Below the pieces are notes generated by a model. The model was not told where the DNA came from and did not search any database. It saw nothing but the letters and a program-made list of their open reading frames with translations. From an uncultured bacterium (GTDB taxonomy: Bacteria > Bacteroidota > Bacteroidia > CAILMK01), in NCBI GenBank assembly GCA_903829945.1, contig CAIKRV010000044.1, positions 21,370-85,369 of the forward strand: DNA of 64,000 nt, written 5' to 3'. Position numbers and translations under genes: made by a program. Positions 54,830 through 62,207 of the stretch are shown in pieces (within the stretch, counting starts at the first letter, position 1; each line of letters starts with the position of its first letter).

Positions 54830-55084
54830 TTATTTATACCTTCAGTTTTAATTTAGTGGTGCCGTGTTTTCCGGTCAATTGCGTTCATTTATATTGTTGC
54901 CTCAAACCTGCCACGTCTTCTGTGGGAGACTCCCGAATCATCGGGACAGGTGGGATGTATTAAATCATGCTCCGCCGCTATGATCTCCGACCGCAAGCTA
55001 AGAAAAATACTTGAAAAGATAAAAAATTCAACCATAATTCATCAACAAACCTCAGCGAACATCATATGTTTTGACGAAGTCAAA

Positions 55085-55222
55085 ACTCCTCACCTTAGCA
55101 AGGGGAGGTGGACGCGAAGCGGACGGAGGGGATGATATCAGACCGCGAAACTCAGTGGAGAGCGGATAGAGAACACAATCCCCTCCGCCCTCCGGGCACC
55201 TCCCCTTGCTAAGTGGAGGAGT
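55085..55222. repeat. Long imperfect inverted repeat (REP/MITE-like palindromic element)
   Basis: ACTCCTCACCTTAGCAAGGGGAGGTG...GGACGGAGGGGAT versus ATCCCCTCCGCCCTCCGGGCACCTCCCCTTGCTAAGTGGAGGAGT, about 44 nt apart. Confidence 0.8.
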
Positions 55223-55238
55223 TCCGCTGAAGCGGAAC
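55221..55238. repeat. Short perfect palindrome adjoining the inverted repeat
   Basis: GTTCCGC-tgaa-GCGGAAC. Confidence 0.7.
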
Positions 55239-55488
55239 ATTATTCCCAGTGATTAATAATTTTATTCAGACTTTGGAACTAATTGCCTTTGTCTTTGGTT
55301 TATGCCCCTGTACGCTAATAGAATTTCTTAAGGCTATAGCAGGTAAACTTCTCCTTACCCCCTGCCCCACGCAATTCGGTAGCCTCATAACATAGGATAG
55401 TATTTTTACACTTTTTGTGCCTGCTATAGGTGCATTTGCTTATTGGATTTTACTGTCCTGTATTTTTTGAACTTTACAATTTATTTTA

Positions 55489-57208: not shown

Positions 57209-57703
57209 ATGAATGCTAAGGAATATAATGCCATTGTAGACCGACACGCAGACGGGCTGTACCGCTTTATCCTGAAAAATTGCAGAGATGCAGCTGTAGC
57301 CCAGGATGTTGTACAAGATGCATTTGAAAAAATGTGGCTGGTACATGGCAAAGTAGACTTTGAAAAAGCAAAGTCCTACTTATTCACTACCGCCTATCAT
57401 ACTTTAATTGACCATATTAGGAAAAATAAGCGCATCACGATGTTGGAAGAACATCATGAAGCTGCTTTCTTTTATACTACAGAATACAATGGTACACAGG
57501 AATTAATTGATTCCGCCATCCAGCATTTGCCTGAATCTCAGAAATCAGTATTGTTATTACGTGATTATGAGGGGTATTCCTATCATGAAATTGCAGAAAT
57601 CACGGGATTAAATGAATCCCAGGTGAAAGTTTATATTCATCGTGCACGTATGTTTATGCGCGCATTTATTCAAAAAATGGAGGGCTTTTATCATGAGTCA
57701 TGA
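57209..57703 (+). CDS. ECF-type RNA polymerase sigma factor
   Basis: AVAQDVVQDAFEKMWL region 2; LPESQKSVLLLRDYEGYSYHEIAEITGLNESQVKVYIHRAR region 4. Confidence 0.92.
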   Translation: MNAKEYNAIVDRHADGLYRFILKNCRDAAVAQDVVQDAFEKMWLVHGKVDFEKAKSYLFTTAYHTLIDHIRKNKRITMLEEHHEAAFFYTTEYNGTQELIDSAIQHLPESQKSVLLLRDYEGYSYHEIAEITGLNESQVKVYIHRARMFMRAFIQKMEGFYHES

Positions 57704-58454
57704 GCTGAATGATAAATACAAAGCTTTTTTATCTTCCCTTTATGATACCTTAAAGGAAGAAGAACTTTTGGAAGCCGAACAAGCGGAAGAAGTAGAAAAC
57801 CGAGTATTTACCAAAGCTTTTGCAAAACCTGATTTAAGCATTCAATTTCCGGATAAAAATAAGCTCAAAAAAATAGAGCAACACAAAATATACGCGCTTA
57901 GAAAGTATGCCCCTCAAGCCATGAGCTTGGCCGCTACCTTAGTATTGGGTCTAATTATGCATACCCAAGCACCTCAGGGTGGAACGGCTTCCAAGTACAA
58001 TAATACAGACGATAAACTTTTACCTAGTTTCCCGGTAATGCAGCAGCCACTTAGCCCGATCGTCAGTTCCGGCTTTGAGGCCTCCCCTGCATTTACCCAT
58101 ATTAAAAACCTCACCTTATCCGATAAAACGCAAAGCAATCAATCCAGTTTGACGGCGGGAGAAATAGCTGCCGGCAGAAAAGAATTGGATAATGTAATGA
58201 AGCTATTGCGTAATCGTACCCAGGAATATTCCACGGCATCCATTGCGGCTCCTGCTACGGATGAATATATCAGTGCATTGGTATTCAGAAACCGACAAGG
58301 TTTCGGTCAAGCAGAAACTAAAATATTTTTAGACAATCCCTTGGCTAAACCACTGGCACAAATTGGAGATAGGGAAATTCCTTCCCGTCATACTTTAACG
58401 AATTTAAATAAAGATAACATGTATAGCCTGCGTGTTTCTCTAGCTCGATGGTGA
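57693..58454 (+). CDS. Single-pass membrane protein, putative anti-sigma/regulatory partner
   Basis: Start MSHELNDKYK at 57693 overlaps the sigma stop; one hydrophobic segment (QAMSLAATLVLGLIM). Confidence 0.55.
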   Translation: MSHELNDKYKAFLSSLYDTLKEEELLEAEQAEEVENRVFTKAFAKPDLSIQFPDKNKLKKIEQHKIYALRKYAPQAMSLAATLVLGLIMHTQAPQGGTASKYNNTDDKLLPSFPVMQQPLSPIVSSGFEASPAFTHIKNLTLSDKTQSNQSSLTAGEIAAGRKELDNVMKLLRNRTQEYSTASIAAPATDEYISALVFRNRQGFGQAETKIFLDNPLAKPLAQIGDREIPSRHTLTNLNKDNMYSLRVSLARW

Positions 58455-58580: not shown

Positions 58581-60974
58581 TTAGTTCTTTATAATTTTCA
58601 TCATGGATGGCATTTGACCTTCGGCAGATACGCCGATAAAATAAACACCGGCTGCTAAAGAGCTAATCGACTCTAATTTAAAGGCATTTAATCCACTACT
58701 GAAGGAGCCGTTTTTAAGGGTCATTAATTTTTGACCGCTTAAATTATAAATCGCTACTTCCAAGATGGCAGGTTTATCCAATGTCAAGCTAAAGTTCAAT
58801 ACATTAGCAAAAGGATTAGGATAGGCCTCCAACATATATTTGTTTTGATACATTCCGGCAATTCCGGTCAGTGAAGCCACATGAATAGCAGATTTAAAAG
58901 TATCACTACATTGCGTAATATTATTGATGGTATTAAGCTCCACTACATATAGACCGGTATCCTTAAAGGTATGGGTAACGGTTCTGGTAGATTTAAAATT
59001 AGTATTACCGTCACCCCAATTCCAGGTGTAAAAATTACCGCCTGAACTGCTTGGTGTAGTATTTTGCACAGTAGCGGTTGGGCCATTAACACCGGTGAGT
59101 GTAAATGCAGAACCGGGCAAAGCATATACCGTAAGCGGCATAGTAGTAGAGTCTGTTCCGGTACTGCTTTTAGCCAATAATTTAATGGTATAATTTCCTG
59201 CCTTTTTGAAGGTATGGGTAGGAGAAAAATTAGTATCAATAGCCGTACTATCTCCAAAGTTCCAAGCATAGGAAGTGGTATATACAGAGGTATTCGTTAA
59301 GGTAAGAGAAGTATTGGAGCATATTGCGGAATACATAGCACTAAAGGAAGCACTAGGATAAGGACCAAAATTAAAACTGATCGTACTATCGGTATTTTGA
59401 GTGATTTTCTGAATGCTCACCCCGGATTTTTTGCCGGACCAAGTTAAGGCATTGGGAGTGGTTTTATCATTGAACGTGGTATTGGAAGTATTCCCGGGGA
59501 ATAAATCACCGCCGTCCCCACGATTACCGCCACTGCTGGCAGCTTTGTCTAAATCATAACGACCATCTGCTTGCTCCAGATAAACCCCTACATCCGTCAA
59601 GTCGGATTCTACAGCGTTATAGTAGTACCAAACCATATTGGTAATGTCCATAATTTTGCTATCAATATGCCATATAGCTAAACCATGACAAGGAAGGGAG
59701 GAATCAAAACCATTGGCGTATCTATTTTCCAATAAATAATACTCATTGGCTACAGAGGTTTTAATTTTATAAATGTTTTTATGATTGGCGGAAGGCGCTA
59801 TAGTATAAGCCCCAGCAGTATTGATCGTAACAGGAGTTACCCACTTAAACCAAGATTTACTCCACGCACTGAAAGAGGAAGGTGTAGCGGTATTATTTAA
59901 CCAAGAACCACCGCCCATTACATCATAATCACCTACGCCGGCAGAGGCATAATCACCATTAACGTAATTGGTATTATATAAATCAGGCATCCCCATTAAA
60001 TGACCAAATTCATGACATAATACACCAATACCGATTAAGGAACTATACAGCAATTCCGGTTGTATGGTATAGTGACTAATGGTAACATTATTGTAATATC
60101 TGGATAAGCCTACATTGGCCAAATCATAATAATGAGACCAGATATATTTACCATTTAAATTTTGTTCGGCACCGGGACCGGCATGCATAACCACTACGCC
60201 ATCCACATTGCCATCTCCGTCATTATCATATTTTGAAAAATCGACGCCGGCGGCATGTGCAGCATCTACGGCCTCCGCCACTAATTTAGTAGCTGCCGTA
60301 TTGCCATTGGCATAGCCATAAGTTGCAATGCTATCCTTGGAGGTGTACCAGCCAAATACATCTACCTTTAGGTTCAAAGTGCCAAATGAATTTTTATTCA
60401 TGTAATCAACAAAAGAACCTGTGCCATTGTAATTCTTTTGGGAAAGCATATTTATAAAACTACCCTTGGAATAAGTGGAATCATAGTCCTTAAACTTGAT
60501 TAAAATGACCAATACACGTTTGGTACCTGAACTAGGGAAACGCTTAGCAATATCATAGGTAGGACCGCTGCTTGTACCGGGCTTATTCGGCATTTGTTTA
60601 TTCATGCTATTAGCGGATTGAATCTTAGAATCACCATAGGTAAGGTGCTTAGTAATTCCGCTAAGGAAACTTAGTTCTTTAATATTTCTAGTGGCATCAT
60701 TATGCGCCAATACCCCTGAAGGGATTAAATTATCGCCCTGCTGAACGGCATATTCAATACCGCCTTTTGCATTGTAAAGCAAGGTATATCCATCTTCGCT
60801 CAGCATATAGTGGAGGTTCATATTTCCGACCAAATGTACATTGAGGTTGGTACCATCTTCCTGAGCAAAAATGAGCGGATTAGGATTCGCCATACAATTG
60901 GACATTCCAATTTGTGCATGGCTATTGAAGCTTAGGCAAAGTGCAAAAGCAATTAGGCAGATAAATTGTTTCAT
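58581..60974 (-). CDS. Secreted M6-family metalloprotease with PKD domains and T9SS sorting domain
   Basis: VLCHEFGHLMGMPDLYN; SYAWNFGDSTAIDTNFSPTHTFKKAGNYTIKL PKD; LEAYPNPFANVLNFSL...LAAGVYFIGV. Confidence 0.93.
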   Translation of the reverse strand: MKQFICLIAFALCLSFNSHAQIGMSNCMANPNPLIFAQEDGTNLNVHLVGNMNLHYMLSEDGYTLLYNAKGGIEYAVQQGDNLIPSGVLAHNDATRNIKELSFLSGITKHLTYGDSKIQSANSMNKQMPNKPGTSSGPTYDIAKRFPSSGTKRVLVILIKFKDYDSTYSKGSFINMLSQKNYNGTGSFVDYMNKNSFGTLNLKVDVFGWYTSKDSIATYGYANGNTAATKLVAEAVDAAHAAGVDFSKYDNDGDGNVDGVVVMHAGPGAEQNLNGKYIWSHYYDLANVGLSRYYNNVTISHYTIQPELLYSSLIGIGVLCHEFGHLMGMPDLYNTNYVNGDYASAGVGDYDVMGGGSWLNNTATPSSFSAWSKSWFKWVTPVTINTAGAYTIAPSANHKNIYKIKTSVANEYYLLENRYANGFDSSLPCHGLAIWHIDSKIMDITNMVWYYYNAVESDLTDVGVYLEQADGRYDLDKAASSGGNRGDGGDLFPGNTSNTTFNDKTTPNALTWSGKKSGVSIQKITQNTDSTISFNFGPYPSASFSAMYSAICSNTSLTLTNTSVYTTSYAWNFGDSTAIDTNFSPTHTFKKAGNYTIKLLAKSSTGTDSTTMPLTVYALPGSAFTLTGVNGPTATVQNTTPSSSGGNFYTWNWGDGNTNFKSTRTVTHTFKDTGLYVVELNTINNITQCSDTFKSAIHVASLTGIAGMYQNKYMLEAYPNPFANVLNFSLTLDKPAILEVAIYNLSGQKLMTLKNGSFSSGLNAFKLESISSLAAGVYFIGVSAEGQMPSMMKIIKN

Positions 60975-61402
60975 TTCTTTTCTTTCTTGGGAGTTGTGTT
61001 TAATTTATTGTGTTTGGCCTGAATTTCTTCAAGCTTGGCGCCTTGATATCTTAGATGTTTCGTTAGCTTATTGATGTATTTAAGTTCTTTGGCATCGCGT
61101 TTAGCAGGATTATTAGCTTTAATGCCTGAGGGTTCCAAATCACCCTTTTTGCTAAGTTCAGCATATTCGTATATCCCGATTTTATTGAGGACTAAAGTAT
61201 AACCGTCTATACTTTCGGTATAAGCCAAGGGAACCGAACCGATACCCAGGATGGTAATCGTACTACCATCCAACTGCGGCAAAGAAATGGTATCCACATT
61301 GCTATTTTCGGTGGTCGGTTTTACTCCTCCCGCAGCGTTTTGAGCGGCTAAGGACAAGGAACTAAAAATAAATAAACAGAAAATAAACGAAATATGCCTC
61401 AT
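60971..61402 (-). CDS. Small secreted protein resembling the N-terminal pro-region of the adjacent M6 protease
   Basis: ESIDGYTLVLNKIGIYEYAELSKKGDLEPSGIKANNPAKRDAKELKYINKLTKHLRYQGAKLEE versus SEDGYTLLYNAKGGIEYAVQQGDNLIPSGVLAHNDATRNIKELSFLSGITKHLTYGDSKIQ. ATG at 61402 preferred. Confidence 0.8.
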   Translation of the reverse strand: MRHISFIFCLFIFSSLSLAAQNAAGGVKPTTENSNVDTISLPQLDGSTITILGIGSVPLAYTESIDGYTLVLNKIGIYEYAELSKKGDLEPSGIKANNPAKRDAKELKYINKLTKHLRYQGAKLEEIQAKHNKLNTTPKKEKK

Positions 61403-61535: not shown

Positions 61536-62207
61536 ATGAGAGTTGATATTCTTACTTTATTCCCGGGTATGTTTGAGGGATTTCTGAATCAAAGCATCCT
61601 GAAGCGTGCGCAAACCAAGGGTATTGTTGAATTACATATTCATGACCTAAGAAATTATTCTCAGGATAAGCACAAGAATGTGGACGATTATGCTTTTGGC
61701 GGTGGTGCCGGAATGGTCATGATGGCTGAGCCGATTGTGCTTTGTATTGAAGAATTATGCGCGGAACGCAGTTATGATGAAATTATTTTTATGAGTCCGG
61801 ACGGGGAGCTTTTAAACCAAGCCATGGCCAATCAACTGTCCTTAAAAAATAATCTCATCATGATTTGTGGCAGATACAAAGGCATCGATCAGCGGGTACG
61901 GGACCATTGGGTAAGCATGGAAATTTCCATTGGAGAATATGTTCTTACCGGTGGCGAATTGGCCGCAGCAGTAGTCAGTGATGCCATAATTCGCTTAATC
62001 CCGGGGGTATTATCGGATGAAAGTTCCGCCTTATCGGATTCCTTTCAAGGGGAACTTTTGGATGCCCCGGTATATACCAGACCTGAAAATTTCAGAGGTC
62101 ATATAGTGCCGGAAGTACTACTTTCCGGCGACCATAAAAAAATAGATGAGTGGCGCTATGAACAATCTTTAAAAAAGTCGGAACGACATAAGCAAGCTGA
62201 GGAATAA
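61536..62207 (+). CDS. trmD: tRNA (guanine(37)-N1)-methyltransferase TrmD
   Basis: [68 protein letters not shown]. Confidence 0.97.

Follow-up and report, generated by a model that had tools for sequence, protein, structure and literature searches.

A handful of serine and cysteine proteases have known inhibitors that derive from propeptides, and a trans-acting pro-domain of an M6 metalloprotease, if the interpretation offered here is true, would constitute a new instance. SUB1-ProM of Plasmodium is a stand-alone subtilisin propeptide-like protein that is encoded next to its subtilase and acts as a potent inhibitor (PMC6993865). Spi of Streptococcus is a propeptide analogue juxtaposed to the C10 protease SpeB (PMC2873492), and the potempins of Tannerella are small lipoproteins that are encoded directly before the KLIKK proteases and inhibit them (PMC7296668).

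Here we describe a locus in a 64,000-nucleotide stretch of DNA from an uncultured member of the Bacteroidota (the whole stretch analysed is referred to as the window), in which a gene for a small protein overlaps that of an M6 metalloprotease. Judging from sequence comparison, we regard it as moderately probable that the small protein is a free-standing M6 pro-domain which arose by duplication and would act in trans on the adjacent protease as a cell-retained, propeptide-type inhibitor, providing self-protection and possibly having a second role as a chaperone. The features of the locus, in positions of the window, are as follows:

58581..60974, minus strand: M6 metalloprotease, 797 aa (TIGR03296, E=1.1e-56, above cut-off; PF05547, E=1.1e-20)
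58584..58823, minus strand: T9SS type A sorting domain of the protease, residues 718-797 (TIGR04183, E=7.4e-11, above cut-off)
59667..60509, minus strand: M6 catalytic domain, residues 156-436 (TIGR03296 match)
60000..60014, minus strand: zinc-binding HEFGH, residues 321-325 (from sequence)
60615..60878, minus strand: core of the attached pro-region, approximately residues 33-120 (alignment and model)
60894..60902, minus strand: Ser-Asn-Cys motif opening the attached pro-region, residues 25-27 (found in the five paired proteases, as SRC in G028; absent at this place from the five stand-alone partners)
60971..61402, minus strand: stand-alone pro-region protein, 143 aa, secreted, without a catalytic domain (open frame, homology to the neighbour's pro-region, and orthologues in genomes G001, G003, G006, and G028)
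60974..61027, minus strand: C-terminal tail of the small protein, charged and rich in lysine, replacing the linker to the catalytic domain (sequence and alignment of five paired stand-alone proteins)
61028..61291, minus strand: pro-domain core of the small protein, approximately residues 38-125 (alignment with the attached pro-region and high-confidence part of the AlphaFold model)
61340..61402, minus strand: signal peptide of the small protein, approximately residues 1-21 (hydrophobic N-terminus, by eye; low-confidence helix 3-23 in the AlphaFold model)

With 192.9 bits against TIGR03296 (cut-off 110.8) and an HExxH motif, the neighbouring enzyme is a member of the M6 family, and PKD domains are present in addition to its T9SS type A tail. 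The T9SS translocon gene sprA, which was the sole T9SS gene searched for, was detected in the genome with 2360.8 bits; a C-terminal sorting domain together with sprA identifies the protease as T9SS cargo. The ORFs at 57209-58454 converge on the protease gene; the first (57209-57703) reads like an ECF sigma factor, and the ORF that follows it, with one likely membrane segment, could encode an anti-sigma factor. Translations at 54950-55240 resemble a palindromic PPLSKGR...GGG intergenic repeat and are unlikely to represent a gene.

The small protein lies within a longer in-frame ORF beginning at 61537, and its hydrophobic signal peptide starts at 61402. A sequence-only reading of the window had placed both ORFs correctly and had proposed that the upstream protein matches the pro-region of the protease; the motifs it quoted are present, and the two are homologous (BLASTP, 44/136 residues identical, 32%; 68.9 bits), the pairwise alignment being significant (E=1e-18) rather than the chance resemblance that would have spoken against the proposal. 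When the whole genome was searched with the small protein, the pro-region of the protease was the only other match (E=6.5e-16). The same reading held that the small protein lacks a catalytic domain, and indeed no Pfam or NCBIfam family was matched above cut-off (the protein is thus not a member of TIGR03296) and no catalytic motif was found; neither TIGR04183 nor PF18962 was matched, leaving it without a T9SS sorting domain. Weak VirB2 and ribosomal-protein matches were taken as chance, and a scan for promoters and terminators did not exceed shuffled expectation.

The two genes share an ATGA stop/start overlap (60974-60971, minus strand), as had been stated, and a conserved gene overlap generally implies translational coupling. 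The search for the pair covered 100 relatives, the order, and, more widely, 395 class and 396 phylum genomes. It recovered further stand-alone copies beside M6 proteases, which the sequence-only reading had proposed to look for, from four Bacteroidota genomes besides this one: G001 of the same genus, G003 of the same family, G006 of another family in the order, and G028 of yet another family, from an order represented by five genomes. The genes overlap in all five, by 4 nt in this genome (G000), 4 nt in G001, 11 nt in G003, 8 nt in G006 (taking the nearest fitting protease start), and 1 nt in G028. Since the divergent neighbour trmD is common only to G000 and G001 among the five, the pair itself is what is kept. 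The pair is rare, a small partner being present in 5 of the 25 class genomes with a pro-region match; at L025, a protease close to that of G006 is preceded by the end of another gene and has no partner. No relative was found in the viral contigs searched.

It has to be considered whether the small ORF is a relic, i.e. what remains of a second protease that arose by tandem duplication and was then truncated or frameshifted, given that it equals the N-terminal part of a protease and that some other Bacteroidales matches contain in-frame stops. The 2.9-Mb, 99.99%-complete assembly encodes, however, a single M6 catalytic domain, the genes overlap with no catalytic remnant between them, the ORF is intact in five genomes that have diverged to about 40-67% identity, and orphan copies elsewhere show dN/dS values of 0.03-0.17. 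Between the congeners G000 and G001, identity is 67% for the stand-alone core, 60% for the shared part of the catalytic domain, and 40% for the attached pro-region; of the three modules, the free copy has thus changed least, a pattern not easily squared with decay. A second, broken protease was accordingly rejected on the single M6 domain, the recurrence of the pair, and its conservation between congeners, and we consider a relic extremely improbable. A pro-region supplied in trans, the core of the sequence-only reading, is well supported by homology, by overlap conserved in five genomes, by strong constraint, and by a matching predicted fold; an inhibitor, chaperone, or immunity role for it, as that reading had also suggested, we infer.

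The same divergence values bear on a different proposal, namely that the small protein serves chiefly as a folding chaperone (foldase) in trans, inhibition being minor, and that the attached pro-region has partly lost its folding role to the free copy. Much faster divergence of the attached pro-region than of the free copy (40% vs 67%) would agree with this, as would synthesis just upstream of the protease and a weak tendency for the pro-regions of paired proteases to be less conserved once catalytic identity is taken into account. Compared across all the proteases, the attached pro-region seems to change more quickly in paired enzymes than in unpaired ones, a hint of relaxed constraint from numbers that are small and not independent. 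We nevertheless hold a primarily foldase role to be unlikely, given that no protease is linked to the orphan copies, M6 proteases that are unpaired manage to fold on their own, the attached pro-region still aligns well, and lipoprotein forms fit less well.

A Ser-x-Cys motif lies near the signal peptide in 5/5 paired proteases (SNC in four, SRC in G028) and in most unpaired proteases outside family f73, and is missing from 5/5 stand-alone partners; it might act in the manner of a cysteine switch or form a disulfide. The tails of the five paired stand-alone proteins are charged, and mostly lysine-rich, where the proteases have the linker to the catalytic domain. Because the motif is missing and a charged tail has been added, the free copy is not a plain duplicate. 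These changes, together with the existence of orphans, could also fit an adaptor that uses the pro-domain fold to bind the protease, away from the active site, or another envelope partner, and so assists in sorting, in pro-peptide processing, or in delivering substrate. The positions that are kept are, however, those of the pro-domain core (D-G-Y-T, Y-A, R..E), and the linkage is to the protease only; an adaptor thus appears to be a rather improbable explanation.

The small protein was modelled with AlphaFold2 on a ten-sequence alignment (mean pLDDT 80; block means of 80-97 over approximately residues 41-130). The model contains strands at residues 38-42, 48-54, 61-64, 69-72, 78-83, and 89-95, and helices at 104-110 and 121-135. 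Six strands and two helices occur in the same order in the pro-region of the protease model, which is of lower confidence (mean pLDDT 63) and was therefore not used for placing the pro-region on the catalytic domain. Foldseek comparison of the small-protein model with the PDB gave no match with E under 0.001, and this pro-domain is therefore structurally undescribed. The protease model matched the zymogen of immune inhibitor A2 (E=4.9e-14), which was also found by sequence search. From its position and this related M6 zymogen structure, the N-terminal region of TIGR03296 proteases is taken to be itself inhibitory; the small protein points to that domain, which had no Pfam or PDB match here, as a functional unit in its own right.

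Two other Bacteroidales groups also contain stand-alone pro-domains, in their case with no protease gene next to them. In the Bacteroidales family f73, many genomes encode predicted secreted pro-domain proteins of approximately 120-180 aa with no M6 gene in the neighbourhood fetched. Representative copies, by locus, are:

L056 and L082-L098 (e.g. L082:4421-4816, L085:5171-5626, and L084:2489-2860): orphan pro-domain proteins of family f73
L101:5289-5699 and L102:5018-5425: stand-alone pro-domain proteins whose lipoboxes (LGAC, ITAC) are clear; both lie among the same kind of redox-type genes, and no M6 gene is close by

Judging by gene names read from translations, the f73 orphans occupy three neighbourhoods: near uppP and truB, adjoining the gene of a topoisomerase/gyrase subunit, and behind a series of genes of the glycosyltransferase, gmhA-like, and gmhB-like kinds. 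Pairwise dN/dS within the f73 orphan groups is 0.03-0.17 where dS is unsaturated, indicating purifying selection, and many of the genomes bearing them also hold several long open frames with the pro-region. Lipoprotein-type stand-alone copies of G953 and G1053 lie in a common neighbourhood. One in-frame stop was observed inside each of several small pro-domain matches (G777:C2:204168-204587, G734:C3:61726-61995, G1113:C3:33430-33780, G1053:C187:35014-35280, and G733:C3:13830-14195); for several matches it is just where the ORF normally ends, and other matches may be decaying copies.

In the phylogenetic tree, the paired stand-alone proteins fall together, four of the five in the starred branch (96/81), and the orphans are placed elsewhere. 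A single clade of all stand-alone copies was rejected by the AU test on an alignment of 95 columns (p-AU 0.015), and because the tree also separates paired copies from orphans, pro-domains were freed at least twice in the Bacteroidota. Lineage-specific duplication of the paired stand-alone proteins was not rejected over the 95 columns (AU p values of 0.10-0.51), although the tree prefers one group, and the data do not settle the placement of the lipoprotein group. In the catalytic-domain tree, the G028 protease groups with unpaired ones (98/95), so that partner losses, several gains, or exchange are possible.

Inhibition in trans is favoured because of the pro-region homology, the overlap in five genomes, the superior conservation of the free copy, the pro-domain-like model, the T9SS tail found on the protease and not on the small protein, and the purifying selection on orphans in genomes with several M6 proteases. 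The small protein would be translated immediately ahead of the protease from one transcript, and Sec would carry it into the periplasm; there, having no T9SS tail, it would stay behind, or it would remain on a membrane in its lipoprotein form. The protease would cross the periplasm on its way out via the T9SS, and the small protein would bind its M6 catalytic domain as the attached pro-region does, keeping the enzyme inactive until export and possibly helping it to fold; a periplasmic pro-domain could likewise bind the catalytic domain of any protease activated prematurely. A cell-retained inhibitor is preferred over a co-secreted one, as the small protein has no T9SS tail and lipoprotein signals occur in one paired copy (a probable lipobox, SGC, in G006) and in two orphans (clear lipoboxes). 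Against inhibition, the protease keeps its own pro-region and could in principle do without another lock, the small partner is absent from most Bacteroidota that have such proteases, and the orphan copies are linked to no protease.

More tentatively, and with somewhat less confidence than for this locus, we suggest that stand-alone M6 pro-domains could form a new class of endogenous metalloprotease inhibitors that evolved more than once in the Bacteroidota, one branch being locked to its protease by overlapping frames and others being unlinked, under purifying selection, and in some cases lipid-anchored, which would guard the cell from its own T9SS proteases prior to export. A genetically fixed pro-domain acting in trans on an M6 protease, if real, could reveal how T9SS proteases of Bacteroidota are held inactive while in the periplasm, and the pair offers a small system that is directly testable. 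No description of a stand-alone M6 pro-domain was found in the open-access literature, subscription papers being mostly outside the scope of that search.

Relative to the described systems, the adjacent enzyme belongs to the M6 metalloproteases (TIGR03296, PF05547; immune inhibitor A). The small protein shares homology with the pro-region that Bacteroidota members of that family carry, differing from them in having no catalytic domain and a model without a PDB match. As in the Spi and SUB1-ProM type of system, pro-region homology (E=1e-18, same order of elements) is combined here with linkage conserved in five genomes. SUB1-ProM is likewise a stand-alone propeptide homologue that adjoins its protease genes in a conserved neighbourhood, but it is from a eukaryote, belongs with a serine protease and has another propeptide fold, and its inhibition was measured, whereas inhibition by the small protein is predicted. 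Spi is also a small propeptide-like protein beside its secreted protease, with which it is co-transcribed; SpeB, however, is a cysteine protease and not T9SS cargo, the fold differs, and gene overlap is not described in the cited text. The potempins share with this locus the Bacteroidota host, a small inhibitor gene directly preceding that of a secreted protease, and lipoproteins as in some copies here, but they act on other protease families, and the cited text reports no relation to a pro-region. The principle is thus known from Spi/SpeB and SUB1-ProM; this locus differs in its protease family (M6), in a fold that has no PDB match, in the overlap of the genes, and in its connection with the T9SS.
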